Positions 2,713 to 27,750 of a stretch of 32,067 nucleotides of DNA are shown piece after piece (positions within the stretch are counted from its first letter, which is position 1; every line of letters begins with the position of its first letter). Where the stretch lies: positions 1 to 32,067 of the IMG/VR virus record IMGVR_UViG_3300020214_002617. One strand, 5' to 3'. The notes beneath the pieces are model-generated. The model was not told the DNA's origin. It worked only from the letters and a program-made list of their open reading frames with translations, and made no database searches. The translations under genes were made by a program, and so were the position numbers. Origin of the DNA: a virus.

Positions 2713-5700
2713 TTAAAAACCATCTGTAGTGTTTAGTGTTGTAACCGTTGCTCTAAATCGAAGTCTATTTGCTACTGAAGTACCGCCGATGGCTGTGCTA
2801 GTATATTGTACTTGTCCACTTGGATGTATAAGGAGAGATACTCCAGGTGAGTCTCCACCGTAGGTATCATCTAGTAACCACATTCCTGCTTGAGTTTTGT
2901 AAACAACTCTAAGTGTACCTACTGTTGCTATCTCTACTTCTGATCCACTGTAGTATCTATAAATAGAATAATGAATTGTTGCAGATCTTACCTTAGTAGG
3001 ATCAAACAATAGACCGGTTACGTTGGATGGTGTTAGTTGTCCGTCTTCAAATGGGAACTCGGTTTCTGGAATATCTTGACCTAAATTCCATACCTCAATT
3101 GCTGATTGAATAGTTGTTGTTCCGGCGAGATTGGAATTGTAGCTAGGATCAAAACTTATTGCGCCAGCATCATGAGCGTCAGCAGAATCATTAAGGTGAG
3201 TATTTAAATATCCATCTAGTGCAGTAGAAGATTCATCTACGTAATCTTTAAGATTCTCGATAGCTGCCTGTACATTAGCACCTAGAGTTAATGCTGAGTT
3301 ATCAAACTTAATCGCAGATGCTTGATGGGCATCTAAAGTATCATCTACATGACTGGTTAGGTCGTAGCTAGAAGATAAAGCTTCAATAGCATCTTGTACA
3401 GTTTGTAAATTGAAATCTAAAACATAAGCATTATCTACAACATTGTATTGAGATGTTAGAGCAGGTGTAAAGTAAACAACATTTGCAACAATATTAATAA
3501 TAGTAACTGTTTGGGTAGGAGTTGTAGTAGATCTAACTTGAATTGTATTTCCGCTACTTAGACTAGAGCTATTAGCTACACTAATATTGGTGGCGCCCAC
3601 TTGGGCGTTTTGAGTTAAAGATACTTTTCTACCAATGTTAGTTAATACATTAGAAAATGCAACATCTTTTGCTTCATGTGGAAACTCAAAACCATCGTAA
3701 ATATTATCAAGGTGACGATAAAGATCTTTACCTAATTCATTGAGTACAGCGTGAACAGTAATGTCACCAACATTATTTATGGTAGGTGCATAAAGTGGTG
3801 ATGAAAAATTAAAAGGCGCAGTTGTAATTGCGTCTGAACGATGAGCTCTAATTAGACTCTTTGAGTGATCATTTAAATTTATAGCTAATGTGTCAGTAGT
3901 CTCTTTAAGATTAATAGGTTTTCGAATGATTCGAGCATTATTTGAAACCAACAATCCAGAAGGAATTGAGCTTAAATAAATTTTAGAATAAGGAATTAAG
4001 CTAGTTGGGGTGCCGCTAAGTTTTAGGCTTTGAAAATATTCTGGAGTATAGGTAGAATGCTCTATATCTGTAACAGTGCTAGGATAAAAAGTAGGAATTC
4101 CACTATTGTCTTGACCTAGACTAACTACGTCTCCTATCTTAAAGAGATTTGCTCTATCTACGAGTATGTAGCCGTCGCTAATGTTTGGATTAGCTTGAAT
4201 TGTAGCTTGAAGAGTTAAGCCTGGAAAGTTCTCTGGTAGAGAGGAATCTATGCGCTCAAATGAAGAGTAGCTTACAGATGTGGACTGATGAGCGTTAGTT
4301 GCTTGATCTTTATGGGCTAAGAATGTATCATAAAATCCTGAAAGATTGACGCCGTTATAAGTATCTGCATTAAACTGTTCTGCTGTTACGGTGCCGGCAA
4401 ATGTGCCACCATTGCTTACTATAAGATCGCCACCAATAGAGAGATCGTTTGTGGTAGTTACATTGCCAGTTAGTAGGGACGATCCTGAGATAGATAGGTT
4501 GCCGGAGCCTGTAATGTCGGTGGCAGTTAGGGCTCCGGATACTAAAGAACTTGCTACTATAACGCTATCTTGAACAGTAAGAGTATTTTGTATTGTAGTA
4601 GCGCCGCTTAGTGTTGTTGTGCCACCTATAGTTGCGTTACTCTCAACTTGCAGACTTCCATCTACTACCAAGTTATCATTAAAGGTTATATCTTGAAAAG
4701 AACTATTTTTAATAGTCAAATTTTGAATGGTAGTATTACCCTGAGCTGTTACTTCAAAAAGAGGGTTGGGTATTGAAGTATTGACGGCCGCTGATCCTAA
4801 GGGAATACTTACTGTATCTCCTGATAATGAGAGGTTATATCCGTCGACTACGCTGGCGACAGTTCTTGTTACACTGTTTGCATAAGTAGGAGATGGATAA
4901 TAGAATGTTACTGTATCACCGTTTGCAAACAAAGAGGTACTTACTACCTGTACAGTAGTACTACTAATAGCAGCTTGAGTTACCTGAGTAGCTGATGGAG
5001 CCCTGATCGTTAGTTGCTTGTCAGTTGCTTGCTGGCTATTTGTATTATTGTAGCCAGGAATAAAGAGTTGTTTTTCTATTTCGTCTACGGCATCAGTAAA
5101 AAGTGCTATTTTAGTATCTTTATTGGTTGAAATTAAAGTTTTATTTTCAATAATTTGATTATTTAGAGTGCCAACTACCTCGCCTACTACACCGTGTACG
5201 TTTTGTGTTAGTGTAGTGTGAGCATCTAGTTTAGTTTGGGTAGCAACCTGAAAGCTTAGATGATTTTCTGTAATTTGTCCAGATTGGATTTTACTGCCAA
5301 GAATGTAGCCATCATGAGCACTATTAATATCTTGCGCTTGATGCGTAGTCAATTTAGTAAAAATACCGTCGAGAGCAGTTTGTACAGTACCATAACCTTC
5401 TAAGGTAGGACTAACTCCAATTGCTCCAGCTGGGTGTGCGTTGGTTGTATCGTTTAAATGAGCGTCTAGTTCTGTTTGAGTTGTAACTTGAAAACTAAGA
5501 TGAGCCTCTGTAATTTGTCCAAGTTCAATTTTATCACCAAGCAACTTACCAGCGTGAGCAATATTAATATCTTTACTGGTATGTTCAGTTAGTTGAGTTT
5601 TTTTAGCTGACTGAGTAGCTACCGCATCCGCAAAAGCTTTTAATTGCTCAATTGCCTGTTGAGTAGTTGTGGCTGTCCAGTTAAATGAGGGTAAATCTAC

Positions 5701-5919
5701 ACTTGATGCTATAGTGAAGCTTGCTATGGTGATTGAAGAAGCAGAATGTGCTGTAGAACTATTCGTATGTGCATCAAGAAGTTGATCTAAGGAAAAACAG
5801 TAGGCCTGGATTGCGCCTATAGCACTTTGCACATCGTTCATGTGCATAGCCCTAATTACTTCGCCTGGGGCGTGAATATCAAAAGAATCGACCGCGGTAG
5901 GAAAACGTAATGTCGTCAT
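2713..5919 (-). CDS. Giant phage fibre/structural protein with HLND-DAH modules
   Basis: This 1068-residue protein is probably a long tail or head fibre. Its N-terminus, MTTLRFPTAVDSFD with H-MND at 26-29, resembles a docking segment seen in many phage fibre proteins (FP-DSF...H.NDL.DAI.ALE) and is shared with 12930-16064. The pattern H-x-N-D-x(3)-A-H-x-A-x-A-I followed by VQ-AI-L occurs about seven times, at both ends. Residues 112-154 and 192-234 form an internal repeat exactly 80 residues apart (DIN-AH-G, QIT-HLSFQV-TQT-LDAH). The middle (about 400-560) is rich in short T/S/G turns such as IGGTTTLSGATTIQNTL, typical of triple-stranded beta-helix shafts. The C-terminus ends in a compact domain containing IHPSGQVQYTSTAIGGTS. 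Fibre identity is well supported; its exact location on the virion is not. Confidence 0.8.
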   Translation of the reverse strand: MTTLRFPTAVDSFDIHAPGEVIRAMHMNDVQSAIGAIQAYCFSLDQLLDAHTNSSTAHSASSITIASFTIASSVDLPSFNWTATTTQQAIEQLKAFADAVATQSAKKTQLTEHTSKDINIAHAGKLLGDKIELGQITEAHLSFQVTTQTELDAHLNDTTNAHPAGAIGVSPTLEGYGTVQTALDGIFTKLTTHQAQDINSAHDGYILGSKIQSGQITENHLSFQVATQTKLDAHTTLTQNVHGVVGEVVGTLNNQIIENKTLISTNKDTKIALFTDAVDEIEKQLFIPGYNNTNSQQATDKQLTIRAPSATQVTQAAISSTTVQVVSTSLFANGDTVTFYYPSPTYANSVTRTVASVVDGYNLSLSGDTVSIPLGSAAVNTSIPNPLFEVTAQGNTTIQNLTIKNSSFQDITFNDNLVVDGSLQVESNATIGGTTTLSGATTIQNTLTVQDSVIVASSLVSGALTATDITGSGNLSISGSSLLTGNVTTTNDLSIGGDLIVSNGGTFAGTVTAEQFNADTYNGVNLSGFYDTFLAHKDQATNAHQSTSVSYSSFERIDSSLPENFPGLTLQATIQANPNISDGYILVDRANLFKIGDVVSLGQDNSGIPTFYPSTVTDIEHSTYTPEYFQSLKLSGTPTSLIPYSKIYLSSIPSGLLVSNNARIIRKPINLKETTDTLAINLNDHSKSLIRAHRSDAITTAPFNFSSPLYAPTINNVGDITVHAVLNELGKDLYRHLDNIYDGFEFPHEAKDVAFSNVLTNIGRKVSLTQNAQVGATNISVANSSSLSSGNTIQVRSTTTPTQTVTIINIVANVVYFTPALTSQYNVVDNAYVLDFNLQTVQDAIEALSSSYDLTSHVDDTLDAHQASAIKFDNSALTLGANVQAAIENLKDYVDESSTALDGYLNTHLNDSADAHDAGAISFDPSYNSNLAGTTTIQSAIEVWNLGQDIPETEFPFEDGQLTPSNVTGLLFDPTKVRSATIHYSIYRYYSGSEVEIATVGTLRVVYKTQAGMWLLDDTYGGDSPGVSLLIHPSGQVQYTSTAIGGTSVANRLRFRATVTTLNTTDGF

Positions 5920-6325: not shown

Positions 6326-6577
6326 TCAAGATGATTTTGTATCTATTGCGATTTTTTGACCGATTTCTCTTTCTTGAGATTTTAAAATTTGTGTAAATCT
6401 TTCTTTTGAAAAACAAAACTCATGAGTTAGTGCAGGAATTTCTAATCTAGATTCGTCCTCTAAGATGAGGACTCGCACAGCAAGGTTTTCCTTCATTAAG
6501 TTTAGATCTGCCTTTACGTTGGCTATTTTTTTCCAAAATAAGGCGCCTGTTGATCTATATTTTACTACATATGACAT
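6326..6577 (-). CDS. Hypothetical protein, 83 residues
   Basis: I do not recognise this protein. It is 83 residues long, soluble and mixed alpha/beta in appearance. It begins MSYVVKYRSTGALFWKKI, has an ILEDESRLEIPAL strand region near the middle, and a charged helical C-terminus. An AGGAAAG ribosome site precedes the ATG. It sits between two other small leftward genes with gaps of 16-17 bases, so it is probably part of the same transcript. The opening (KYRS.G..FWKKI.NV) could be a strand-turn-strand of a small accessory fold, but no function can be assigned. Confidence 0.6.
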   Translation of the reverse strand: MSYVVKYRSTGALFWKKIANVKADLNLMKENLAVRVLILEDESRLEIPALTHEFCFSKERFTQILKSQEREIGQKIAIDTKSS

Positions 6578-7155: not shown

Positions 7156-7914
7156 TTATTTTACTCGCATTATGTAAATAACATTAAAATATTTTGGCCT
7201 TAGATCGGTAGTTGTAGTTCCACTGGAATTAAGTATATTATGACCATGGCCGGCGCTGTATTGTAGTGTGGGTGAATTTGTACCTGGGTTAGTACCACCA
7301 GTATTAGCTCCGGAGCCATTACCATTTATACCAGAATATACACCGCTAGTATAATAATAATCAGGATTTCTGGTAATCCCAGCTTCTCCTATATCGTCAA
7401 TGCCAGAAGGAGAATACTCGGATAAAGACCAGGCTACCTGTGTTGGTATACCAACAGTGTTATAATCTGAGGTATTTCTAGTGTAGTTGTCTCCCGAGTA
7501 GTTGTTAGACCATTGATGGTTATGACGCATGTCGTGTGAGTGAGAGTTAACAGTGTGACCGTGAGAAAAATCGATAGTTCCTAAACTGGATTGCAAACTA
7601 TAAGTATTACTTCCACCTGTTGTTCCAGTAGTAGAGGAGCCTTGTAAAAATCTATCATCTGTAAGATTTGGCATGTTGCCAATAAATAGAGGGTCGCTAC
7701 CTGAAGGAAAAGCTTGTCCGTTACAGAGAGCGAATCCTTCTTTAATTTGACCAGAAACAGGGAGACTCCACGCTACTGTACTTGCTATTGCTACAACTGC
7801 TCCTACTGGTATTATACCGTAGCCATATGTAGGTACTTTGAAGGTAACTGATTGACTACCTTCGGGGCCAATTGCTAGTCCAGCATGATCTGCACCTACT
7901 AGTCTTGTTGCCAT
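7156..7914 (-). CDS. Divergent tail-collar (short tail fibre-like) protein with four HxH motifs
   Basis: This 252-residue receptor-binding-type protein has a divergent tail-collar core at about 37-100, with GFALCNGQAFP matching the GWLLCDG core of the family. HxH pairs follow at 118-120, 125-127, 131-133 and 223-225. In T4 gp37 such histidine pairs bind iron inside the needle-like tip; the same use here is inference. The C-terminus, LRPKYFNVIYIMRVK, matches the usual collar ending RP...NYIIK. The first 16 residues (MATRLVGADHAGLAIG) match those of 8707-9054 and probably form an attachment tag. An AGAGGAG ribosome site precedes the ATG. The leader is also shared with 8707-9054. Confidence 0.8.
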   Translation of the reverse strand: MATRLVGADHAGLAIGPEGSQSVTFKVPTYGYGIIPVGAVVAIASTVAWSLPVSGQIKEGFALCNGQAFPSGSDPLFIGNMPNLTDDRFLQGSSTTGTTGGSNTYSLQSSLGTIDFSHGHTVNSHSHDMRHNHQWSNNYSGDNYTRNTSDYNTVGIPTQVAWSLSEYSPSGIDDIGEAGITRNPDYYYTSGVYSGINGNGSGANTGGTNPGTNSPTLQYSAGHGHNILNSSGTTTTDLRPKYFNVIYIMRVK

Positions 7915-7960
7915 ACTACAACTCCTCTTACTTAAGAGTAGAAATCAATCGATAATATTG
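7915..7960 (-). promoter_or_regulatory. Conserved 5' leader block, copy 1
   Basis: Read toward the ATG at 7914, the block CAATATTATCGATTGATTT starts 46 bases upstream. The same 19-base block, 17 of 19 identical, occurs 46 bases upstream of the ATG at 9054. The distance from the end of the block to the ATG is 27 bases in both, although the intervening bases differ apart from the ribosome site. This suggests a shared promoter or operator element, or a common origin of leader plus N-terminal tag. Confidence 0.6.
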
Positions 7961-8002: not shown

Positions 8003-8698
8003 TTAGATCTTGATAATGTAATTCAAGACTATAGTAGGTTGCACTGTCTGGTAGGCGGTGTCGGAGCCGGTAGAAGATGTGTTAATGTTTTCTGTTACTG
8101 TTGCTCTATTACCTACAGTGACATTATCTGTGTTGCCATAAGTAGCGGTATTATGGTTCCGGCTAGTAAATGATATTACGGTTCCGGCAACAGGAATATA
8201 AGTTGCTGTGTTATTTTGACTAACCCAGTCGTTAGACGATATGAACCCTAAAGAAGCAGTGTTTCCATTACAGGACCCTATCAAAGCTACAATATTACCT
8301 TTGCCATGATCATGAGTACTATTGGCAAATGTTGTTGTTCCTGTTAGCCCTCCTGTTCTACTATGGCTATGAGAAGGGAGTTGCGAAGTAGTGAGAGAGG
8401 TGGATTGTACACCGCCAGTGGTGGCTATATTTCTTGCGTTGATTCCAGAAGATGCGGTAGTTAGCCTGTCAGCAAAACCTCCACTATTGGTGTCTTTGCC
8501 GGCCGAGACTCTTCCTCTCATATCAGGAACGTTGAATGAATTTCCATCTGTAGAGCCGTAAAGAACTCCTACAGTTTGAAATAATTCTGGATAACTTGAT
8601 CTAGCATAAGAGGTTCCGTCACATAGAAGCCAGCCGATTGGTGCTGTTTCTCCAGCAAAGGCTATAACGGTTCCTGGTGGAAATGGAAGATAAGTCAT
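8003..8698 (-). CDS. Tail collar domain protein
   Basis: This 231-residue protein is a textbook phage tail-collar protein (PF07484-type). The core runs PPGTVIAFAGETAPIGWLLC at 7-26, then DGTSYARSSYPELFQTVG, then NVPDMRGRVSAG at 56-67. HxH motifs at 110-112 (SHSHS) and 129-131 (HDH) suggest metal binding in the tip. The segment between about 115 and 210 is G/S/T/N-rich and probably forms the variable tip. The protein ends NYIIKI, as do the other two classical collars here. Its ATG has an AGGAG site and it lies 8 bases after 8707-9054. It probably contributes a short tail fibre or adhesin at the baseplate. Confidence 0.88.
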   Translation of the reverse strand: MTYLPFPPGTVIAFAGETAPIGWLLCDGTSYARSSYPELFQTVGVLYGSTDGNSFNVPDMRGRVSAGKDTNSGGFADRLTTASSGINARNIATTGGVQSTSLTTSQLPSHSHSRTGGLTGTTTFANSTHDHGKGNIVALIGSCNGNTASLGFISSNDWVSQNNTATYIPVAGTVISFTSRNHNTATYGNTDNVTVGNRATVTENINTSSTGSDTAYQTVQPTIVLNYIIKI

Positions 8699-8706
8699 AT
8701 ATTCTC

Positions 8707-9054
8707 CTATGTTATAAACCAGTTTGTACCATCAGAGATAAAAGTAGCTGCTTGGTAATTAGAGGAAAACAAGAAACTTACTAAGCCATCTATAGTTCCA
8801 GATGAGGTATTTATAAAAACGGAATAGTTACCTACTCTTTTTACAATTATGGTTTGGCCAACTACTGGAGTTGGTAAGGTTAAAGTGATTGCCTGACTTG
8901 TTGGTGTAGCAACAACAAAGGAATCATTTTGCGATAAAGAGCTTGTGATCGAGATCACTCTCACATTTTGAATAAGTCCATTTTTAATACCTATGGAGCT
9001 ATTTGCGTGAATTGCTAATCCAGTTTGATTTGAGCCTAAAAGTCGAGTTGCCAT
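8707..9054 (-). CDS. Small beta-rich virion/fibre protein with shared N-terminal tag
   Basis: The product has 115 residues. Residues 1-16 (MATRLLGSNQTGLAIH) match the start of 7156-7914, so both probably dock on the same partner. Residues about 30-115 form a beta module with TSQAITLTLPTPVVGQTIIV, then SSGTIDG, ending in SDGTNWFIT. The same module ends 11448-12479 and 12930-16064. It is a common fibre module in phages, reading LP...G....k....t..I.G....l..dG.W. The ATG has an AGAGGAT site and the conserved leader block upstream. It is the gene nearest the divergent AAA+ gene, so its promoter is probably in 9055-9158. Confidence 0.7.
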   Translation of the reverse strand: MATRLLGSNQTGLAIHANSSIGIKNGLIQNVRVISITSSLSQNDSFVVATPTSQAITLTLPTPVVGQTIIVKRVGNYSVFINTSSGTIDGLVSFLFSSNYQAATFISDGTNWFIT

Positions 9055-9100
9055 ATTTCATATCCTCTTGTAAAGATAAAAAAATCAATCGATAACGTTG
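9055..9100 (-). promoter_or_regulatory. Conserved 5' leader block, copy 2
   Basis: CAACGTTATCGATTGATTT lies 46 bases upstream of the ATG at 9054, matching the block at 7942-7960 in sequence and spacing. Here it is flanked by A/T runs that form an inverted repeat (9080-9106). Unlike copy 1, no convincing -35 hexamer lies 17 bases upstream. The block itself, rather than a sigma70 -10 box, may therefore be the conserved signal. Confidence 0.55.
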
Positions 9101-9106
9101 ATTTTT
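9080..9106. repeat. 9-bp inverted repeat in the divergent intergenic region
   Basis: AAAAATCAA (9080-9088) and TTGATTTTT (9098-9106) flank a 9-base loop between the divergent genes 8707-9054 and 9159-10187. The position between two divergent starts favours an operator or bidirectional control site. A terminator is less likely, because the stem is very AT-rich and no gene ends here. TTGATT on the plus strand (9098-9103) followed after 18 bases by TATTAC could be a weak promoter for the ATPase gene. Confidence 0.45.
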
Positions 9107-9158
9107 ATTAGTGTGACGTGATATTACTGTATGTGATTTTATGCAGGGAGATCTCTAA

Positions 9159-10187
9159 ATGGATAAAGAAACATTAATCTATACCGATTTTGAGGTTGTA
9201 GATAAGCTTCCCTTATCTAAGGGAACGAAACTTACGTTAAGTAAACATGAAAATTATCAGATTATGCATGGTCCTGAAGGACCAGAATTAGTAATCACTA
9301 AATTTGAAACTAAATCTCCAGCGCTAGAAATCCTAGATCCTGAAGAAGAGAATCTTAAGGAAATTGAAAAAACTGAAAAAAACGAGGAACTCAAAGAGGC
9401 GCGCGAATTTCGAAAAAAATGGCAGATTAAGCCGGGGCAGTGGTTACTTCATAATGAAAAAGGGCTACTTGCTCTTCAGCAGGAAGAAGAGCTTTATTTT
9501 GAAACTAGGACTAGTAAGAAGTTGTTGCAAATTTTAAGATCTTTTTTTAAAAATCACCATAAAATGCTTAAATATAAAAGACTAAAAAGATCATATCTAC
9601 TTCACTCACCTCCTGGTATGGGCAAGAGTGCTTTGTTGAGGTATTTTTCGCGAGAAGCTCTTAAGGTAGAAGGAACCAGTATCGTTAAAGTTTCTGGAGA
9701 TCTTGATTTTAATATACTTCAGCACATATTTTTGATGGAGTATCATAAAGATACTAAATTTATTATCTTAATAATCGAAGATTTTGGTAAAAAAGATTGG
9801 TCTCAAAATCAACATCTTTATAACCCAAGCTGTCTAAATTTCTTAGATGGAAACGTGCAATTATTTAGAGTTCCTACCTTAATCCTGACCACTACTAATT
9901 TTGCCAAAGAACTTGGATATCAATTAACCAATAGACCAGGACGATTTAGTCAAATTATTAGGGTCTTACCTCCTACAGATGAAGAGGTTTTTGAGTTGGC
10001 AGAGAGCTATCTCCAAAGACCTCTAGATCAAAGCGAAAAAACCGCGTTTGCGGGAAAGCCTTTTTCTCCAGATTATTGTTTAGAGGCGATTGTTAGGGCA
10101 GAGTTAGAAGAAGTCTCAATTGCAGTGGCTGTTGATGAGATTTTAAAAGAAAGAGAGGGAATTGTTGAGTGGGATAAGGTTGAATAG
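9159..10187 (+). CDS. BCS1-like AAA+ ATPase
   Basis: This 342-residue ATPase is the only rightward gene in the window. It has an N-terminal beta-like segment (1-55), a charged linker (60-90) and an AAA+ core (about 110-290). Walker A is SPPGMGKSALL (150-160), with S in place of the usual first G. Walker B is IILIIEDFG (202-210), with the E-D order seen in BCS1-type AAA proteins. Sensor 1 is TTTN (244-247), and RPGR (259-262) supplies the likely arginine finger, followed by a helical lid. A GGGAG ribosome site lies 8 bases before the ATG. BCS1-like ATPases act as protein translocases or remodelling machines; here the substrate is unknown. Possible roles are fibre assembly or an early host-directed function. 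It meets the next gene stop to stop with one base between. Confidence 0.85.
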   Translation: MDKETLIYTDFEVVDKLPLSKGTKLTLSKHENYQIMHGPEGPELVITKFETKSPALEILDPEEENLKEIEKTEKNEELKEAREFRKKWQIKPGQWLLHNEKGLLALQQEEELYFETRTSKKLLQILRSFFKNHHKMLKYKRLKRSYLLHSPPGMGKSALLRYFSREALKVEGTSIVKVSGDLDFNILQHIFLMEYHKDTKFIILIIEDFGKKDWSQNQHLYNPSCLNFLDGNVQLFRVPTLILTTTNFAKELGYQLTNRPGRFSQIIRVLPPTDEEVFELAESYLQRPLDQSEKTAFAGKPFSPDYCLEAIVRAELEEVSIAVAVDEILKEREGIVEWDKVE

Positions 10188-10188
10188 T

Positions 10189-10743
10189 TCATATTTTTAT
10201 GATGTAATTTACGCCTCTATTGTGTGGACGAGTTTCGTTATCTCCGCTTAGAGTTGCAGTATGTCCATGCGATGAAGATGGAATACTTACGTCTCCCCAG
10301 TTGTAAAAGTTTGCATCTATCCATCTATCGTCAGCTACTATCTTCATACCTCCGGAGGCGTTACTTCCACTTGGACGCATAATAGCTGAAGCGGCGACGC
10401 TATTGGCAGCAATAGATGATGATAGTCCGTTCTTAGCAGTTTTATTAGTTTGCCACCCACCTAAAGTCGTTACATCGCCGCCTAAGCTAGGGTGTGGTGT
10501 ACCAGTTCCTCTAAGAAAAGAAGCTCTATAATCTGGTATTCTAAACTGACTTGCAGAGGGAGCAGTCCAATTTGCATTAGTAGTAGGATTAAATTGAGTA
10601 TTGTAGGTAGTAGATAGAGTTTGAAATAATTCTGGATAATCGGCTTGATTATAAGCAGTGCCATCGCATAGGAGCCAGCCACTGGGTGGAGTGCTTCCAG
10701 CAAATGCAATAACAGTTCCTGATGGAAAGAAAAGAAAGGCCAA
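10189..10743 (-). CDS. Tail collar domain protein (short paralogue)
   Basis: This 184-residue collar protein has FPSGTVIAFAGSTPPSGWLL (6-25), CDGTAYNQADYPELFQTLST, and FRIPDYRASFLRGTG (67-81). It is a clear paralogue of 10752-11447: both have a TTYN-Q-NPTTN-NW insert, the TLGGWQT-KTAKNGL block and the ending GDNETRP..GVNYIIKI. The tip region is about 45 residues shorter and retains one HxH (159-161). The start is TTG at 10743, chosen because AGGAG lies 5 bases upstream and the collar core begins at residue 6. It lies 8 bases after its paralogue. Its stop is one base from the end of the convergent ATPase gene. Confidence 0.85.
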   Translation of the reverse strand: MAFLFFPSGTVIAFAGSTPPSGWLLCDGTAYNQADYPELFQTLSTTYNTQFNPTTNANWTAPSASQFRIPDYRASFLRGTGTPHPSLGGDVTTLGGWQTNKTAKNGLSSSIAANSVAASAIMRPSGSNASGGMKIVADDRWIDANFYNWGDVSIPSSSHGHTATLSGDNETRPHNRGVNYIIKI

Positions 10744-10751
10744 ACTAACTC

Positions 10752-11447
10752 CTATATTTTAATAATATAATTTACACCTTTGTTAACTGGACGAGTCTCA
10801 TTGTCACCTGTAAGGGTTTGCGCTGGTGTAGTACCAGAAGCAGTAAATGTTGCGCCGCCAAAGGACCAGCTATGTGCATGAGAGGGATCTGAGCTGCCAG
10901 TGCCACCATGAGTATGATTTCCAACAGAGCTAGTGTTAGCGGTAGTGTTAGTATTATCTAATGCTCCAAAACTTCCAGCACTAACGGCATAAGAGTTACC
11001 TTTATAGGTAAAAGTATGGTAGTGCCCTCCATCACCTCCAATGGTATGTGAGTGATTAACAGAGGTGCTGGAAGTGCCGCCATCCATTTGATTTTTAGCA
11101 CCACTAACGGATGTAGTGCTTGACGATGATGCTAGTCCGTTTTTAGCTGTTTTATGAGTTTGCCAACCACCGAGAGTTGTAGTATCTCCACCGGAAGCAG
11201 TGCCTATACCTCTAAGAAAGCTACCTCTATAGTCAGGAACTCTAAACTTTCCTGCTGAAGGAGCGGGCCAATTTGTATTAGTTGTAGGATTTATTTGGAT
11301 ATTATAAGTTGTACTAATGGCATTATACAGCGCAGAGTATGTTGTTTGATCGTAGTCTGAGCCATCACATAATAACCAACCATCTGGCGCAGTTGAGCCT
11401 GCATAAGGTAAAATAACTCCAGGTGGACAAAATCCTAAATAACTCAC
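10752..11447 (-). CDS. Tail collar domain protein with four HxH motifs
   Basis: The protein has 231 residues. The core is PPGVILPYAGSTAPDGWLLC (8-27), then DGSDYDQTTYSALYNAIST and FRVPDYRGSFLRGIG (68-82). The tip carries HxH at 132-134, 142-144, 178-180 and 190-192, consistent with a histidine-coordinated metal needle as in T4 gp37 (by analogy). It ends ETRPVNKGVNYIIKI. The start is GTG at 11447, immediately after the TAA of 11448-12479, with GGGAG about 9 bases upstream. The tip differs most from the paralogue 10189-10743, as expected for receptor-specificity determinants. Confidence 0.87.
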   Translation of the reverse strand: MSYLGFCPPGVILPYAGSTAPDGWLLCDGSDYDQTTYSALYNAISTTYNIQINPTTNTNWPAPSAGKFRVPDYRGSFLRGIGTASGGDTTTLGGWQTHKTAKNGLASSSSTTSVSGAKNQMDGGTSSTSVNHSHTIGGDGGHYHTFTYKGNSYAVSAGSFGALDNTNTTANTSSVGNHTHGGTGSSDPSHAHSWSFGGATFTASGTTPAQTLTGDNETRPVNKGVNYIIKI

Positions 11448-16094: not shown

Positions 16095-17876
16095 TTAGGA
16101 TAATTGATGTAAAAAATCCTGTAATTCTTTTGTGAGATCCTTACTAACTACTGTAGCAATCAATTGATCAAGATCCATCACTGAGTTTGTAATATCTTGA
16201 GGAGAAAATTCAGATAAATCCTGGCCTAAGAATGCTTGCTTTTGCTCAGGTGTTAGTTTAGACTGGATATATTCCTTGAAACTATTGAAGCTTAGTATTG
16301 TTGTTTCTTCATCTTCTGTAGTGTCTTCACTAACTTCAACTTCTTCAAGGAGGATTATTACTCTAGGAACTACATTACTAGCTTCTAGATGGCGATACTC
16401 GTAGCTATCGAGAGCTCTTAAATTGGCATTGAAATCTAAAATCCTATCTTGAGGTTCTTGATGCATACTATTAGTATACATTGCATATAAGTGGTTATGT
16501 AATTTCTTGGCATATTGACATGCAGTTGAAGGCTGAGTCTGTGAACCCTTACAAGTGTTGCATGTTTGTATATATGCAGATGAGCGAAGTGCTTTTACGT
16601 AGTTTGGTTGTTGCAAGCGTTGCTTAGGAGATACCTTATTATGTATTTCTGTCTGGTATACTGCTAGTGCTTGCATGAACGCTTTTTTAGTTGAATCCAT
16701 CTTGCTAATTTTTACCAATTCATCAAGATCTTCTTCATCGAGATGTGTTTGTAAAGAGCTTAGTAGTTGCTCCAGAGTGTCTTCAGTGGTAGTAGATACA
16801 GTGTCGTGGAGGGATTTGCCTTTATCTTGAGACGAACTCTTACTCGAAACAGTAGTGTCGAGGCTAATCTCATTTACTAATTTCTTTTGTCTAGTATAGA
16901 TTTGTTTTTGAAGCTTTTCGAGCTCTCTTGCTTCTTCCATTGTGAGTGGTTGTTTCTCTTGAAGAAATTTTACTTTTTCTAGAAGAGAATAATCTTGTTT
17001 AGTAAAGCGACCAAGAGCTTTATTGAGTTTGCCAATGAGATTCATAACTACTTTTTGCGGTCCTCTAGCTCGAAGAGCGGCTCCTACAACATTAGGCTTT
17101 AGCGTAAAAGTACAATGTAAAACTGGTTGATTATTTTCAATCTCAAGATTTCTAAGAGGAGAATCAGCAGTAATCCATTTGCTTACTTCGGGAGTTAAAA
17201 GTACTTGAAATGCAATAGTGCCATTTGAAACAACAAACGTAGTACCCTGTGAAGTTTCGCTTGTGATTGTAGTGCCTGGAGGGGAGGGTTCAGGTAGTTT
17301 TATTCCTTCTACTGGTTGAACAAAATTGTGCCTGTCATTTTGGAGATTAGCTTCGCTAGTCAGTGTCGATTTATCTACTACAAAAAGAGGGGCGCTGACT
17401 CCACATTCACTGCAATATGGGCAGAAAGGAATATTAATGCCATCTTTATTGGGTTGAGTTGTATTAATTAGTTGAGCAGTAGCTGTAGCGTCTTGAGTAT
17501 AACGAAATTGTTCGGAGCGAGAACCATCAAGGGCTAGATCTTGAAGAAATGATTTGGAAAGTTCTACATATACATCGTTGGCAAGTTCGTCTACTTTTTT
17601 ACCTGTTTGTAGTAAAACTTTTTCAGTATTAGGGCTTAAACGTTTGCCTAGTAGTTGTCCCTTGATCCATCGAAGCAGGGCTCCATCGAAATTTTTCCTA
17701 TTTATGGAATAAATAAGAGCGATTAGGTCTGGTATGTGTTGTGGGCTACCGAGCATTTTTAATATGTCGTCTTCGGACATATTCTTTGCTACTTCTTGTA
17801 GGTCTTTAGAAACGAGATTAACATCGAAGTGACCAATCTGCTTTGGGTGAGCTCTAACAAATCGATATAACTTCAT
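16095..17876 (-). CDS. Hypothetical virion-type protein with two cysteine clusters
   Basis: I do not recognise this 593-residue protein. The first 130 residues are helical. A cysteine cluster, CPYCSEC (152, 155, 158), is followed by a beta-rich domain (about 165-275). Helices follow, with a coiled-coil-like stretch near 295-340 (EEARELEKLQKQIYTRQKKL). A second cluster lies at C439, C442 and C453 (CNTCKGSQTQPSTAC). The two clusters together could bind zinc or form an iron-sulphur site. A segment at 510-527 is acidic. ATG at 17876 directly follows the TAG of the upstream gene, with AGGAAG in that gene's end, so translation is probably coupled. A structural or assembly role is inferred only from position next to the fibre genes. 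Confidence 0.65.
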   Translation of the reverse strand: MKLYRFVRAHPKQIGHFDVNLVSKDLQEVAKNMSEDDILKMLGSPQHIPDLIALIYSINRKNFDGALLRWIKGQLLGKRLSPNTEKVLLQTGKKVDELANDVYVELSKSFLQDLALDGSRSEQFRYTQDATATAQLINTTQPNKDGINIPFCPYCSECGVSAPLFVVDKSTLTSEANLQNDRHNFVQPVEGIKLPEPSPPGTTITSETSQGTTFVVSNGTIAFQVLLTPEVSKWITADSPLRNLEIENNQPVLHCTFTLKPNVVGAALRARGPQKVVMNLIGKLNKALGRFTKQDYSLLEKVKFLQEKQPLTMEEARELEKLQKQIYTRQKKLVNEISLDTTVSSKSSSQDKGKSLHDTVSTTTEDTLEQLLSSLQTHLDEEDLDELVKISKMDSTKKAFMQALAVYQTEIHNKVSPKQRLQQPNYVKALRSSAYIQTCNTCKGSQTQPSTACQYAKKLHNHLYAMYTNSMHQEPQDRILDFNANLRALDSYEYRHLEASNVVPRVIILLEEVEVSEDTTEDEETTILSFNSFKEYIQSKLTPEQKQAFLGQDLSEFSPQDITNSVMDLDQLIATVVSKDLTKELQDFLHQLS

Positions 17877-17877
17877 G

Positions 17878-20007
17878 CTACTTCCTTAAGGAATTTAAAA
17901 TATAAGTAATTTTTGCTTGAACTTTTGGTGAAGCAATCTTCTTGAGGCGAGTAATGCTTGAAGCTGCAAGTGGTAGCTCTTCGGAAGTTGGAAGAGGTGC
18001 CTGTGTTTTTTGTTCTTTAGCTTCTGGCAACTTATCAACCCAAGCCATCACTTTAGTAACTATGAGATCAACCATTTCCTTGTCGTTTTGCAATTCTTCT
18101 AACATTTCACTAACAAGAGCTTGTTTAAGATCTTTTTCAGAAGTAAACGGATGCCCCTTAGAGTCCATAAATTGAGGTACTTCGGCTGCAAATTTGTGTA
18201 AGTATGTTGCGGTGCTTTGCTTTTTAATTAAAGAAGTCCAATCGATAGAAGAGGATTGAGGTGATTCTGAGCTTGTTGATGGTGCTGGTGACTGTTTTGG
18301 TGAAGGTTTACCAAATTGCTTAGTTTTCCCAACTTGACTTGCGAAGGAGGACCACCAAGGGGTCGTAGAAGAGCGAGGAGCTAGACCATAATTAGGTTGA
18401 GCAGTGAAGTCTAATCGGTCTTTGTTGTCTTTTCTGATCTCGTACTCTTTCCCGTCAACTACTACTTTTCTATTTAGAACATCGTCTAGTGTTACTTTTA
18501 CATTTTTCCCTTCTATTTGAAGATAACCTAAGACTGGATTACCATGCATGGTCGCCATAAGGTCGTCGCTTAGATCTATGAGATAGTTTTCGATGTCTTC
18601 TACCTCTGCTCCAGCTGAAAGATTGTATGTCTTAGGTTGATAGCTATCATTAGCTTGATTTTTAACATAGATAGGTTCATCTCCAATTTTAACCGAAGAG
18701 AGTGGTCTTTGTACCTCTTTGGAAGATGTTTGAATCTGAAGAGAATCTAAAATCTCTTTGTAGCTATCTGGATCTATCATTTTGCGACCATCGGCTCTTA
18801 CAGTTGCCTTGTCTGCTAATTGTTTTTCGAAAAGAGTTTTTTGCGCTTCATCAGTAAAAACAGGCTTCGACTCGGTAAAAGGACTAAAAGATTGCATTAA
18901 GGCGAAGCTTGCTATAGGATAGCCACTTGAAAAGGCGATTGGATGCTTAACCCCGTATTCTTTAGATAGATGATGCCTTAACGAACCTTCTGCAACAAGT
19001 TGTATTATTTTACGACGATAGCTTGCTGGAAAGCGTTTCATTATACTAGGAATTTCTTTAGGATTCACAGCCTTATCTTCGCGGCTGAAAGGTAATGTTA
19101 TCCCCTTTGTAACTAGATCGTGAAGCTTGGTGAGCTCTACTCTTAACATATTGAGCTTAGGATCTTTGGTTTTTTCATATTCTTTAGAAATAAAGGAAAG
19201 CCAACCATCCCATTCCATATCTGGAGTTCTAACTAAGGGAAGTTCTTGATTTAATTGATTGATAAGATCAACAGCGATTGCGTCAGCTAGCGCTGGCTTG
19301 TGTGCTACATAGTTTAATATAGTAACTTTAATAGGAGCATTTTCTACGGGACGTGTATCTTGAAAGCTTGTAAACTTAAAACCTAAGCGTGCGATACTAT
19401 AAGGACGCTCAGTAGATTCAGCCGTGAACTCCTTTAGTAGCTCTTGTACTTGTTCGGAAGTAGGCTTATCGGTAACTGGAAGATTGAGAATTTTACCTTC
19501 TCCAGCTTTTTGAAGAAGTAGTAGACGGGATGCTTGCTGAGATAGAACAAATTCGTTAGCGTCATCTATTCCATTGTTATTTAAGTCGTGTTTTAAATTT
19601 TCTTTGTCGCTCTTAAGTTTTTTTAACTCTTCAGCTTCGTCAGGAGAAATAACAAACGGTGAAGGACTATCTTGCGTATGCTTATTTTTAGCCTTACCCA
19701 TGAACTCTAGAGCTTGAGAACCTAAACCTTCCTTATCTGCAAGAGCTATATTTTCTTCTTGTGTTCTAATTTTACCTGCAGCTGTTTTTTCAGACGCAGC
19801 TCTTTTGAGAGTCGATAATTCTTTGGATGTTAGCCCATGACGGGAAGCGAAATCTTGTAGAGCGTCTTCTACTGAAGACCACTTAGCTAAGGTTTTACCT
19901 TCTTGTATGAGACGGACTTGGTCAACATAGCTAGCCTCAATGTGCTTTGCAAGTTTAGTTATCTTTTCGCTTTGAAGAAATTTATCTAACCATCCATCTC
20001 TTTTCAT
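17878..20007 (-). CDS. Hypothetical large virion-type protein with an EF-hand-like loop
   Basis: I do not recognise this 709-residue protein. Its start is MKRDGWLDKF, with GGAG before the ATG. Residues 122-140 are charged and helical and lead into DLNNNGIDDANE (141-152). The spacing D-x-N-x-N-G...D...E fits a calcium-binding EF-hand or dockerin-type loop, although position 8 is D rather than hydrophobic. The middle (about 190-470) appears to be mixed alpha/beta. Residues about 560-590 are S/P-rich, like a linker. KFA (605-607) and KIA (690-692) match a short motif recurring in neighbouring products. Two bases separate it from the upstream gene. Function unknown. Confidence 0.65.
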   Translation of the reverse strand: MKRDGWLDKFLQSEKITKLAKHIEASYVDQVRLIQEGKTLAKWSSVEDALQDFASRHGLTSKELSTLKRAASEKTAAGKIRTQEENIALADKEGLGSQALEFMGKAKNKHTQDSPSPFVISPDEAEELKKLKSDKENLKHDLNNNGIDDANEFVLSQQASRLLLLQKAGEGKILNLPVTDKPTSEQVQELLKEFTAESTERPYSIARLGFKFTSFQDTRPVENAPIKVTILNYVAHKPALADAIAVDLINQLNQELPLVRTPDMEWDGWLSFISKEYEKTKDPKLNMLRVELTKLHDLVTKGITLPFSREDKAVNPKEIPSIMKRFPASYRRKIIQLVAEGSLRHHLSKEYGVKHPIAFSSGYPIASFALMQSFSPFTESKPVFTDEAQKTLFEKQLADKATVRADGRKMIDPDSYKEILDSLQIQTSSKEVQRPLSSVKIGDEPIYVKNQANDSYQPKTYNLSAGAEVEDIENYLIDLSDDLMATMHGNPVLGYLQIEGKNVKVTLDDVLNRKVVVDGKEYEIRKDNKDRLDFTAQPNYGLAPRSSTTPWWSSFASQVGKTKQFGKPSPKQSPAPSTSSESPQSSSIDWTSLIKKQSTATYLHKFAAEVPQFMDSKGHPFTSEKDLKQALVSEMLEELQNDKEMVDLIVTKVMAWVDKLPEAKEQKTQAPLPTSEELPLAASSITRLKKIASPKVQAKITYILNSLRK

Positions 20008-20009
20008 AG

Positions 20010-20741
20010 TTACTCCACTTCACGACCTAAAATTTTATCACCTAAATGATGCTGTGCCTCTTCTTTTTGAAGAGCTGTAAGCATGTGGTCATCCAGAAAT
20101 TGTCTAAATTTGTTAAACCATTCACTGAGCGACTCTGGATTGCGGCGATCAAGCATTATATCGTTTTTCCAAAGCGCCCAAAAAATATTAGCAAGCGTCT
20201 TTGGATTAGATTCATCTTTGATTGCTGCGGATTTTAGTAAAGATGCTGTTTTTTGTTGTAGAAGAGTTTTCACTCGAAATTGAAAATACTCTCTAGCAAG
20301 CATAGTTTCAAATGAATCTAGATGACCATACTCAGTAAGGAAACTATTGAACTTGGTAGACCACTTGTTGAGTGTTTCTTGTGGATCTGTACTAAAATCA
20401 AATGCAATTTGCTCTATGTACGGAGCTAAAAAGATATCTACAACCTTTTTAGGACTATGATGTTTAATAGCAGCTTCGCTAAACTTGGTAAGTCCTGTTG
20501 TGGTATTAGCTTTTGTGCGACTAGTGTAGGTATAAGAGGGAGTTTCTGGAGAGACGTTATATGGACCCTTCCAGTAGGTGTGAAGAGGACCTTCTTCTGA
20601 TGGCATACCAAACTCCTTTAGAACCGACTTAACCCAACTATACTTTTCTGGATATTGCTCCATTAAGTGTAGAAGAAAGCGTGCTTGAGCTTTTGAGTCA
20701 AATCCTTTTGACTTGATTGGGTTGTAGGCTTTTTTATCCAT
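20010..20741 (-). CDS. Hypothetical helical protein with an internal repeat
   Basis: This 243-residue helical protein contains two copies of a segment of about 40 residues, 96-135 and 179-217. Both follow the pattern PKxxxxIFxAxxxxxI-xxD, then PExLxxWxxKFxxFL. A looser version occurs in the next two upstream genes (20741-21187 and 21234-21893). ATG at 20741 overlaps the TAA of the upstream gene by one base (TAATG), so the two are probably translated in series. Basic and K/A-rich stretches (LQQKTASLLKSAAIKDE) lie between the repeats. Family and function are unknown to me. Confidence 0.65.
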   Translation of the reverse strand: MDKKAYNPIKSKGFDSKAQARFLLHLMEQYPEKYSWVKSVLKEFGMPSEEGPLHTYWKGPYNVSPETPSYTYTSRTKANTTTGLTKFSEAAIKHHSPKKVVDIFLAPYIEQIAFDFSTDPQETLNKWSTKFNSFLTEYGHLDSFETMLAREYFQFRVKTLLQQKTASLLKSAAIKDESNPKTLANIFWALWKNDIMLDRRNPESLSEWFNKFRQFLDDHMLTALQKEEAQHHLGDKILGREVE

Positions 20742-21187
20742 TATAGGTATTCGCGTTCTTTTAGTTGCTTTAAAAAAATGAATTCTTGGTACTCGTTGAG
20801 TTTATATTTATTCACTAAGCTGCGAAACCAGCCATTAATGTCTTGCGCATTTTCGATTTTTTTAGATTCAAATTCTTCACAAACTGTAGTTAGAAAATCT
20901 TCGTCACTGATTGATTCGCAAGGAAATGATCTTAAATCAGAACTTAAAAAGTACGAAGCGCCTGTACCATTTCTCTCTTCTTTATAGATTGCAAATTTTT
21001 GTTCATTTTCTTTTAACCATTTAAAAATATTATTAGCTACATAAATTGCTTGGTTAAAATTTTCACCTCGATAGAAGGTATTTATGCTTGAACCCTCAAG
21101 CTCTACTACATAAAAAAGATTGCGATCTTCTTCGGTTCTTAAAACTAAAGTAAGAATAGGCGTATCAGATGCAAATTCGTTAATCAA
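20741..21187 (-). CDS. Hypothetical protein, TTG start
   Basis: This 148-residue protein has an N-terminal half that looks mixed alpha/beta (DTPILTLVLRTEEDRNLFYV, VELEGSSINTFYRGENF) and a helical C-terminus. The C-terminus contains DINGWFRSLVNKYKLNEYQE, related to the repeat in 20010-20741 and to the end of 21234-21893. The start is TTG at 21187: a GAGGAAAG site lies 5-6 bases upstream, whereas the nearby ATG is in another frame and stops after five codons. The stop overlaps the next start by one base. Function unknown. Confidence 0.62.
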   Translation of the reverse strand: MINEFASDTPILTLVLRTEEDRNLFYVVELEGSSINTFYRGENFNQAIYVANNIFKWLKENEQKFAIYKEERNGTGASYFLSSDLRSFPCESISDEDFLTTVCEEFESKKIENAQDINGWFRSLVNKYKLNEYQEFIFLKQLKEREYL

Positions 21188-21233
21188 AGAACTTTCCTCA
21201 TACTAATTAACTATCTGTATTTCTATTATTGCT

Positions 21234-21893
21234 TTAGGCGAAGTATGTCTCGGCCATATCTTCATGATTAACTGGGCTAGATCTTATAGTATGACCCATA
21301 TCGTTTAAGATGAAGTGAAGCTCGAGTTTTTCTCGATCAGTTAGCTTATAGCGCTCGTTGAGTTTTTCAAAAAGATCTTCTATATTTTTACCTTGCGAAA
21401 CTTTCGCATTAACTAAAATACGAGCTAAGCTAAAGATAAAAGGATTTACGTAGTAAACAAATTTAGAAGATTTAGTAGCAGTTTTTACTAGACCGCTTTC
21501 GACTGTATGAGCTATTTGCTCTAAGCCAAACTCAATTCCTTCTTCAATAAGATCAAGAGTTCTTAACTGATCCTCATTAAGATCGGCATAGGGAGCGTCT
21601 TGCTCAACACCACTAATTAGTTCGGCTTGAATATTTTTTAAATACTTGGCTGTACGACGAAGAGCATTAACGGAGCCGTCATATGTAGGAGGTAGATTAC
21701 GAGAAGCATTGACTATATAGTTAGTAAATTCTTGTGGATTTTGCCATTCTGTATACTCGACAAGCTCAGTTTCGGACTCATCCACTGTAACCGGCTCGGA
21801 TTCAAGATCATCTTCTGAGGCAAAAACAACATGATTTGTTACTAGATCATCTTCAGAAACAGAAAGATCTTGATTTATTTCCGTGTTAGTCAT
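21234..21893 (-). CDS. Hypothetical protein with acidic N-terminus
   Basis: The protein has 219 residues. Residues 1-50 are strongly acidic (SEDDL, ASEDDLESEPVTVDESETEL) and probably disordered. The rest is helical. Residues 133-215 (GLVKTATKSSKFVYYVNPFI onward) end with NIEDLFEKLNERYKLTDREK, which aligns with the C-terminus of 20741-21187 (WF-SL-NKYKL) and loosely with the repeats of 20010-20741. GGAGC precedes the ATG, and gaps of 46 and 59 bases flank it. That is wider than usual for this cluster, so a minor promoter is possible. Function unknown. Confidence 0.62.
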   Translation of the reverse strand: MTNTEINQDLSVSEDDLVTNHVVFASEDDLESEPVTVDESETELVEYTEWQNPQEFTNYIVNASRNLPPTYDGSVNALRRTAKYLKNIQAELISGVEQDAPYADLNEDQLRTLDLIEEGIEFGLEQIAHTVESGLVKTATKSSKFVYYVNPFIFSLARILVNAKVSQGKNIEDLFEKLNERYKLTDREKLELHFILNDMGHTIRSSPVNHEDMAETYFA

Positions 21894-21952
21894 TTCTAGC
21901 TCCTTTTATTGGTAGTCAGATATCTCGTTTATTCTTTTAAAATCAATAGCAG

Positions 21953-22696
21953 CTAGCTACGCTTAGTGAACGGTTTTAAACCTGCTAGACTCCAAAAGTT
22001 AAGCTGATTTTGCTGTTGATATGGAACTGGAGATTCGTAGCTCCAACCACTCCATATACTGGGGGATGTTGGGTATGAATGATGCATTTTTAAACTTTTT
22101 TTTGGAACAATGCATTTTTCTCTTTCTTCTAGAGATTCTGCATTTAAAAGACATTCGTCTTCTTGCTGTTTTTTATCTTTTTCTTTAGCTATTTTTTGCA
22201 ATGGAAAGGTAAGATTGTAATCTTTTTCTAGTTGATATACTAAACTTGCCTTTTCCTGCTCTGGTAATCCTAGTAATAGGCCCTGTATTGACTTAATAAT
22301 TTCTGCTTCGGGAAGAGATTCGTCTTGAACTATTTGCTCTAAAGTCTTGTATAGATTGTTGTCATTTTTTTGTGCCGATGCGAGCTTGTGCAGTATCTTG
22401 TAGCTAGAAAGTACAGAGCTTATTGGGTCCTCTTTAGAAAAAGAAATAAGCTTAGCTTCAATATCTCTTTGGATAATATCCACATCCGAAGCAGCTGTAA
22501 TAAATCCGTAAGTTTCAAGATTAGATTTTAAACTGTTAAGGTCGTGATGAGCTTTTTTAAATTGATTAATAAGATATTGCTGCTCTTCTATGAAGGCTGC
22601 ATCAGTTGCTATGGGATAGAGTTTAGCAGCAAGCGTGTACTCGCCTCTTCTTTCTAAAAGGTTAATAGTGGATTGAATTTTAGTTAATAGACTCAT
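21953..22696 (-). CDS. Hypothetical helical protein
   Basis: This 247-residue protein is almost wholly helical up to about 175. It contains two short hairpin-like motifs with a central glycine: LLERRGEYTLAAKLYPIA (13-30) and LETYGFITAASDVDIIQRD (60-78). Similar motifs occur in 23783-25348. Lysine-hydrophobic-alanine motifs are at 104-106 (HKLAS) and 168-170 (QKIAK). Two cysteines (182, 195) lie in a charged segment, and the last 45 residues are P/S/W-rich and probably extended. ATG at 22696 overlaps the TGA of the upstream gene (ATGA), indicating coupled translation. Function unknown. Confidence 0.63.
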   Translation of the reverse strand: MSLLTKIQSTINLLERRGEYTLAAKLYPIATDAAFIEEQQYLINQFKKAHHDLNSLKSNLETYGFITAASDVDIIQRDIEAKLISFSKEDPISSVLSSYKILHKLASAQKNDNNLYKTLEQIVQDESLPEAEIIKSIQGLLLGLPEQEKASLVYQLEKDYNLTFPLQKIAKEKDKKQQEDECLLNAESLEEREKCIVPKKSLKMHHSYPTSPSIWSGWSYESPVPYQQQNQLNFWSLAGLKPFTKRS

Positions 22697-23790
22697 TTTG
22701 CTTCTTCTGTTTTAAACCTTTTATACCCTTTAAGTGAGGGATCGTAAACGAGACCTTCTGCTGTAGCAATTTGCTGCATTATCTCGTTATGAGACCAAAA
22801 TCCTGCCTTTTTTAATTCGCTATATTTATTTAATAATTCTTGTAATTTTTCAGGTGTTAGTAACTGAATTTTTTTATTGTACCTAAACAGTGATGTTAGA
22901 TTAATTGCTACATTGCTTGTGCGATTTTTGATTTCTTCGTCCTGTTTTTGCCAGTATTTATCTTCTAATCCAACTACAGAAGATAAGGGGGTACCATAAA
23001 GAGCGTAGTCTGTAACTATATCTTTTGACACGTCTTCTTCTAGGGCCCATCCTATGACAGATCCTATAGCTATACCGGCTAGGGCGGATAGTGTGGCGAT
23101 GGCGGTCCAAATGCCGATGGCGGATGCAGCAGCACCTGCTCGTTGAAGTGCAAGAGCCATTCGTCCAATTTGTACTGCTTCTTGAGCTGCGACTCCAGCT
23201 CTTTGCGCTGTAGCAGCAGCATTTGCGCTATTAACGCTTGCGTTGCTTATGGAGGCGACTGTTGCTATTTGTGAAGGTCCAAGTTGTAAAGCACCTCTAA
23301 TTAAGGACATTATCCAGCGACGGGGAACGGCGGCGGCTAGAAGAGTTTTTATGGTATTGAGTATAAATAAGAGTGTGACGTTTCCAAATTTCTTTACAAC
23401 AAAATGTAGACCTATCCCTGTACCCATAGCTGCTGCGTCTTTAGCGTTTCCTTGAAGTGCCTGCATACCTCCGAGTAGAAGGCTGATTTTAGGGCTGAAA
23501 ATGCCAAAAGCGACCTCAGCAAGTATTTGTAATTCAGGAAGATATTGTTTATATTTGTTGTAAATTTCAGCGACGTTTGAAAGGGTCCACGACAAAGCAG
23601 TATCGCTAACATTTGTAACTAAAGATCCTTCTTCCTTTTTCATCTTTTCATAAAGTTCGCGATCAGTTCTCTTTAAAAACTCCATATCTACAGAGGCAAA
23701 GTGCACTGGAACTACAGGAGTAGAGCGCTGAAGACTTTGTAGTGTATCTAGTTGAGCTAGAAGGTTAGTGTAATATGCTGCACTAGACAT
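22693..23790 (-). CDS. Hydrophobic alanine/glycine-rich protein, possible membrane-active virion protein
   Basis: This 365-residue protein has a soluble helical N-terminus (1-90) and C-terminus (255-365) around a hydrophobic core. Likely membrane segments are about 137-155 (NVTLLFILNTIKTLLAAAV) and a long one at 221-250 (AASAIGIWTAIATLSALAGI, then AIGSVIGWAL), with weaker ones near 95-130. The helix at 190-220 is alanine-rich (AAATAQRAGVAAQEAV). In a structural cluster such a protein could be a pilot or injected pore protein acting on the host membrane; that is inference. It is too short and has the wrong pattern for a typical tape-measure protein. AGGAT precedes the ATG. It overlaps 23783-25348 by 8 bases and 21953-22696 by 4. 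Confidence 0.65.
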   Translation of the reverse strand: MSSAAYYTNLLAQLDTLQSLQRSTPVVPVHFASVDMEFLKRTDRELYEKMKKEEGSLVTNVSDTALSWTLSNVAEIYNKYKQYLPELQILAEVAFGIFSPKISLLLGGMQALQGNAKDAAAMGTGIGLHFVVKKFGNVTLLFILNTIKTLLAAAVPRRWIMSLIRGALQLGPSQIATVASISNASVNSANAAATAQRAGVAAQEAVQIGRMALALQRAGAAASAIGIWTAIATLSALAGIAIGSVIGWALEEDVSKDIVTDYALYGTPLSSVVGLEDKYWQKQDEEIKNRTSNVAINLTSLFRYNKKIQLLTPEKLQELLNKYSELKKAGFWSHNEIMQQIATAEGLVYDPSLKGYKRFKTEEAK

Positions 23791-26040: not shown

Positions 26041-26082
26041 ACTTTCTTACTCATTATATGCTTGATAGAAGGTCAACTGCTG

Positions 26083-27737: not shown

Positions 27738-27750
27738 GAGAACCTCTCAC

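Follow-up and report, generated by a model that had tools for sequence, protein, structure and literature searches.

A conserved AAA+ ATPase linked to tail-collar gene arrays in a rare group of uncultured phages

Phages encode helpers for the folding of their trimeric fibres, among them T4 gp57A, gp38 and the Tfa-type chaperones. These are small non-ATPase proteins unrelated to AAA+ enzymes, and we know of no phage fibre chaperone that uses ATP. An example of a phage-encoded fibre-folding helper comes from Pam3 (PMC9608196). BCS1 orthologues have been reported in jumbo phages with a proposed role in membrane-proximal assembly and translocation into the head, and this work (Iyer et al. 2021, PMC7824862) also cites a MoxR-vWA pair that one archaeal virus needs to assemble its tail; collar genes did not come up when we searched its text. 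In extracellular contractile injection systems, the AAA ATPase Pvc15/Afp15 loads cargo into the tube, and the particle assembles without it (PMC11495950). Our literature search returned no paper in which an AAA ATPase is connected with fibre assembly or with collar genes.

The window analysed here is the whole 32,067-base stretch of one virus record. Its sole rightward gene (9159–10187, + strand) encodes a collar-linked AAA+ ATPase of 342 aa, assigned by profile matches, alignment and predicted fold; the reading frame opens with ATG, and AGGGAG lies ~8 nt 5′ of the start. All other sizeable ORFs are on the minus strand, and the remaining plus-strand ORFs of ≥60 aa (60–87 aa) in the 32 kb overlap longer minus-strand genes, in agreement with the sequence-only reading that the ATPase stands alone against leftward genes. 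Because relatives share 43–57% identity with the window protein and dN/dS between them is 0.07–0.11, a value of purifying selection, the ORF is not a chance one, and a sequencing artefact is ruled out on the same grounds. Misassembly as the cause of the inversion is unlikely, since the ATPase is inverted in contigs L025, L028, L031 and L057 as well. The window holds a complete, real AAA+ ATPase gene.

This gene interrupts a row of tail-collar genes, as had been noticed, with PF07484 matches on both sides. To its right, a tail collar gene at 10189–10743 (−; 3.8e-16) converges on the ATPase across a 1-nt gap, followed by a second at 10752–11447 (−; 2.1e-14) and by a gene for a baseplate/fibre-connector protein with a T4 gp9/10 N-terminal-like segment (PF07880; 11448–12479, −). 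To its left lie a gene for a 115-aa protein resembling the C-terminal part of gp9/10-type fibre proteins (8707–9054, −), a third tail collar gene (8003–8698, −; 1.1e-20) and a divergent collar-like fibre gene (phrog_1800; 7156–7914, −), which brings the collar or collar-like genes of the array to four; the product of the last shares 36% identity with a protein encoded in L029 two genes upstream of the ATPase. An 83-aa protein (6326–6577, −) is related to a 78–79-aa ATPase neighbour in L029 and L033. Elsewhere in the window, 3–2687 (−) encodes a large, very repetitive protein whose repeat (TGFNNxVxxLALDTTNxKLYVGGxFTTY) is that of a propeller-like fibre or spike, and 16095–31920 (−) encodes ~14 consecutive proteins with hardly any PHROG match (9 scanned, 3 marginal), which suggests a poorly sampled phage lineage.

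The ATPase and gene 8707–9054 are separated by a divergent leader of 104 bp (9055–9158), which contains an AATCAA(N)TTGATT dyad in addition to the ATPase ribosome-binding site AGGGAG. The dyad region recurs at 7942–7960, before gene 7156–7914, from which the leader and N-terminus of gene 8707–9054 are duplicated. The segments 7870–7960 and 9010–9100, 1140 bp apart, are 77% identical over 60 nt and 89% over 19 nt and share TTATCGATTGATTT and the dyad, which points to duplication or recombination inside the collar array or to a shared promoter/operator. Such a divergent leader with a repeated dyad would suit an ATPase that regulates expression of the array, where inversion and leader act as a switch for collar choice. 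We consider this highly improbable. Flanking inverted repeats of useful length are absent between 6.5 and 12.5 kb (best 30 nt at 77%), so that a DNA-inversion switch was rejected, and no invertase was recognised nearby. Several same-strand ATPases in other phages follow a collar gene by <30 bp and therefore have no such divergent leader. To our knowledge, BCS1/YjoB-type AAA proteins are not DNA-binding activators. A scan for sigma-70-like promoters found no more of them than in shuffled sequence, and no plus-strand hit within the leader.

The ATPase is predicted to consist of an N-terminal beta domain (residues ~8–52), a coiled-coil helix (61–87), a beta hairpin (93–105) and an AAA module (~117–332). 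Judged by its sequence, it is an AAA+ protein of the classic AAA clade: the AAA family model (PF00004) scores 21.7 bits against the window protein, just above the curated cut-off of 21.2, and matches 10 of 14 members at E ≤ 0.01. The E-D Walker B, TTTN sensor and RPGR motifs pointed out in the sequence-only reading are present, and alignments of all full-length relatives retain Walker A S-x-PGMGKS, Walker B IxEDFG, sensor 1 TTN and NRPGR. In the window gene, translation and alignment place the Walker A loop S-P-P-G-M-G-K-S at 9606–9629 (residues 150–157), sensor 1 T-T-N-F at 9891–9902 (245–248) and the arginine-finger segment N-R-P-G-R-F at 9930–9947 (258–263), and alignment places the Walker B end I-E-D-F-G, with the ED order of YjoB (LVIED), at 9774–9788 (206–210), all on the + strand.

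We modelled the protein with AlphaFold using 18 aligned members (pLDDT 82, pTM 0.69); an earlier 4-row model (pLDDT 45) was discarded. Foldseek against the PDB returned Bcs1 as the top match (1.4e-12), and VIA-align yielded Z scores of 15.5 for YjoB (3.1 Å, 223 residues) and 14.7 for Bcs1 (3.4 Å, 219 residues), a small margin over the proteasomal and NSF AAA domains at Z 13–14.5. The structural matches span residues ~85–335 of the model, with YjoB covering 89–330 and Bcs1 starting at 85 or later, and YjoB is also the best profile match of the ATPase (9.7e-8). The predicted fold of the AAA module is thus BCS1/YjoB-like, which bears out the initial description of the protein as BCS1-like for this module but not for the whole architecture, as none of the 14 members matches BCS1_N (PF08740) at E ≤ 0.01 and residues 1–90 contain no hydrophobic run able to span a membrane. 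Since the BCS1-specific domain and the membrane anchor are missing, the ATPase may work like BCS1, and we do not claim BCS1 identity.

The segment that forms the pore loop of unfoldases reads G-D-x-[DN]-F in the ATPase and is as short as that of YjoB; when the two are aligned by profile, the stretch that precedes helix 2 contains no gaps and has no aromatic-glycine pore loop of the VCP type. This suggests that the ATPase more probably handles folded or partly folded protein than threads its substrate fully. Clamp loader or protease identity is ruled out by architecture. An FtsH-type AAA protease, which has a zinc protease domain C-terminal to the AAA module, was rejected because the protein stops ~70 residues past the AAA core (the PF00004 match ends at 269 of 342) and matches no peptidase family. 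Pvc15/Afp15 identity needs an N domain and tandem D1-D2 AAA domains, and the ATPase has a single AAA module in 342 aa.

IMG/VR (2.9 million contigs) was scanned five times, with either the ATPase itself or alignments built on it, and an additional collar-alignment scan of IMG/VR added L037 and L057. Beyond the window, this gave 12 placements (L002, L003, L004, L009, L010/L011, L025/L028, L029, L031, L032, L033, L057 and L037), where L010/L011 and L025/L028 are counted once each; the window makes 13. The arrays of L009, L010 and L011 are near-identical, as are the ATPases of L025 and L028. L002 is contig 3300020204_000007, L003 and L004 both come from the low-quality contig 3300045125_000169, where they lie 14 kb from each other and each carries a frameshift, and L037 comprises only the first 37 ATPase residues at a contig end. 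A scan of 84,980 bacterial and archaeal genomes revealed no relative, so that no prophage or host copy is known, and 50,697 annotated phage records yielded distant AAA proteins only. Those of KPP25, Pylas, Lpa804, cr10_1, R26L and phiXF1 lie in non-structural regions where annotated and are too far away in the tree to inform function. All contigs that carry the ATPase, many of them fragments, derive from uncultured phages, of which the carriers are a rare group.

The linkage between the ATPase and collar arrays is conserved. In all 13 placements the ATPase is found within or next to an array of collar or collar-like fibre genes; in most it is co-directional with the collars, in several with gaps of 12–28 bp. 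On one strand, L032 reads collar, collar, 25 bp, ATPase, 15 bp, collar; L033 reads collar, 23 bp, ATPase, collar-like gene; and L004 reads fibre gene, 12 bp, ATPase, small partner, three collars. The ATPase follows a collar by 27 bp in L003, and in L009 and L010 it stands on the strand of three consecutive collars (of up to six) and a small partner gene that precede it. G002 holds two ATPase copies 14 kb apart, one per collar array. The ATPase opposes the collars in four to five placements (window, L025/L028, L031, L057; in L057 it opposes the intact collar and shares the strand of a collar remnant), with at least three orientation changes on the tree. 'Lone opposite-strand' is therefore an accurate description of the window and not a peculiarity of its ATPase, and it is collar linkage rather than orientation that is the important point of the locus. 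Compared with L002, L003 and L004, the flanks of the window show no detectable similarity outside collars and other fibre genes; with flanking genes this unalike, the kept collar link indicates that the linkage outlived large rearrangement.

Two further features of these contigs were observed. L025 encodes, by reading of its translation, a GroEL-like chaperonin of 568 aa (945–2651, −) on the contig shared with the collar-linked ATPase. In L057, immediately upstream of the ATPase, a ClpX-like reading frame continues into what is left of a broken collar gene (4834–5748, − and 4400–4830, −), which we interpret as gene decay or a recombination scar.

Random placement of the ATPase as near to a PF07484 gene has a combined Fisher p of 0.0013 (12 copies), in a test that is conservative in counting G003 as a failure, where divergent collar-like genes fall outside the Pfam model (one of them matches window gene 7156–7914 at 36%), and that is generous, hence modest, in that some contigs are short and consist mostly of tail genes, so that the arrays cover a good part of them. 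In six large contigs, members of the collar-linked clade, detected with the family profile or P0001, are confined to collar arrays. The sequence-only reading had proposed fibre assembly as one option and had named conserved synteny with collar genes as the observation that would speak for it. This synteny is found in 13/13 placements and lends support to the assembly role, as does the higher conservation of the ATPase (81–91% identity in matched phages) relative to the adjoining collars (59–75%).

The same reading had also offered an inserted moron gene that acts on host proteins or in phage-host conflict. Such an accessory gene would travel with the variable collar locus; it might remodel or inactivate a defence or surface protein of the host, or serve in conflict between phages. 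This would account for an ATPase that in some contigs (window, L025, L028, L031, L057) is inverted and has a leader to itself, and whose GC content is below that of its surroundings in 9/10 loci. It would also fit a weak similarity of the P-loop region to the anti-phage ATPase IetA (E 2e-4, 60 residues only); this match, at 14.9 bits against the cut-off of 510 of NF042959 (NCBIfam), is far too low for family membership, and IetA was rejected. No toxin or defence partner domain was found, and a gene of this kind is at odds with collar linkage in every placement, frequently within collar operons of the same direction and only a few bases from the next gene, with the phage whose two copies each have an array, and with the strong conservation of the ATPase across otherwise unalike phages. 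We regard the moron-like explanation as somewhat unlikely.

Further support for it comes from smaller phages that have similar collars and lack the ATPase. L040 and L041 encode the same collar subfamily and small partner, and their records contain no ATPase, whether close to these genes or elsewhere; none occurs in the available stretches of L063, L072 and L073, small phages with the same two genes; the ATPase is also absent from distant relatives with a single collar gene. The ATPase is accordingly an accessory of a subset of phages, and the collar proteins can do without it, which weighs against the assembly role. The small-partner family (~70–205 aa) starts like MKIIIKKGEPLWSxxGxHVLDxxGFAV (K-G-E-x-L-W-S) and directly adjoins collars, also in ATPase-free phages (L010 9392–9985, L002 9515–9892, L057 2985–3329, L041 10618–10875 and others); a fibre partner or chaperone is a possible assignment.

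In a maximum-likelihood tree, all 13 collar-linked rows form one clade (100/100), and replication-linked paralogues are its nearest kin (union 95/94); the tree is unrooted, and the program warned of long branches elsewhere in it. The paralogues nearest to the collar clade are L105, L109 and L106 (28–33% identity), of which L109, a further AAA paralogue copy, adjoins dnaE. Two phages hold both kinds of ATPase at different loci. In G003 the second AAA protein is encoded at 121.9 kb in the company of dnaE-, sbcC-, ssb- and ruvC-like genes, and the closest collar is 38 kb away; in G005 it is encoded at 81.9 kb, close to ribonucleotide reductase and ligase-like genes, with 66 kb to the closest collar (gene names around the replication paralogues were read from translations). 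The replication paralogues end in a GF-containing acidic tail that is missing from all full-length collar-linked members. In L105 (8866–9867, −), L106 (9275–10276, +) and L109 (9016–10011, +), these tails may bind a clamp or an SSB-type partner.

These neighbourhoods would agree with an ATPase that remodels another virion or replication complex, the ancestral role, and owes its collar linkage to shared descent only. Huge-phage relatives that adjoin a clamp-loader-like gene or dnaE, and the membrane-proximal head assembly proposed for phage BCS1 proteins (PMC7824862), point the same way. We judge this explanation to be very unlikely given the separate collar-linked clade, its missing tail and the presence of both ATPase kinds in each of two phages, and for the first two reasons the window ATPase was rejected as a replication-linked paralogue. 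Grouping with replication ATPases, which the sequence-only reading had set against an assembly role, is found for the nearest outgroup but not for the collar-linked proteins themselves. Duplication and recruitment of a replication-linked phage AAA+ protein is the simplest account of the paralogues and probably the origin of the collar-linked ATPase, with the direction inferred from an unrooted tree.

We tentatively propose, at close to even chances, that the ATPase is a dedicated BCS1/YjoB-type assembly factor for collar-domain (short-tail-fibre-type) receptor-binding proteins. An intact, conserved remodelling ATPase, its receptor-binding linkage and its duplication with a second array together suggest collars or their small partners as the substrate. 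The ATPase would form a ring that recognises a collar protein or small partner through its coiled coil and its small N-terminal domain. ATP hydrolysis would then remodel or release the bound protein, for example where trimers of the collar paralogues are mixed or mis-registered, and would thereby ensure that the baseplate receives the right tips. Multi-collar phages would need to sort similar subunits into the right trimers, a task that would not arise in single-collar phages. The stronger proposal, that the ring is a distinct ATP-driven fibre-assembly machine which builds, proofreads or chooses among side-by-side collar tips, assembling or exchanging them at the cost of ATP, we consider unlikely.

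Among described systems, YjoB of Bacillus subtilis (PDB 7w42) resembles the ATPase in its LVIED Walker B, TTN sensor 1, NR-x-GRF and short pore-loop-1 segment; it differs in that identity is 19% in the structural alignment, that the match begins at model residue 89 and leaves the N-terminal part of the phage protein unmatched, and that no fibre link is known for YjoB. The mitochondrial chaperone BCS1 (PDB 8t14, 6u1y, 9gs2), a heptamer that translocates folded protein, shares the fold of the AAA module, to which the match is limited, whereas the phage protein has neither BCS1_N nor a transmembrane segment. Pvc15/Afp15 is likewise an AAA+ protein in a phage-tail-like gene cluster and a loading chaperone, but is set apart, by its description, through tandem AAA domains and ~700 aa (PMC11495950). 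The replication-linked paralogues (L105, L109, L106) and the huge-phage relatives (L012–L014) have the same domain order, but lie among DNA-replication or nucleotide genes and carry the C-terminal GF-containing tail. The jumbo-phage BCS1 orthologues (PMC7824862) resemble the present ATPase in being phage-encoded AAA+ proteins of BCS1 type with a proposed role in virion assembly. BCS1-type ATPases in jumbo phages were already known; new is a defined clade tied to receptor-binding arrays. If the proposed assembly role is true, an AAA+ ring at these arrays would bring an energy-driven step to the virion structures that determine host range; the collar linkage gives the assembly role proposed for phage BCS1-type ATPases a concrete candidate substrate.
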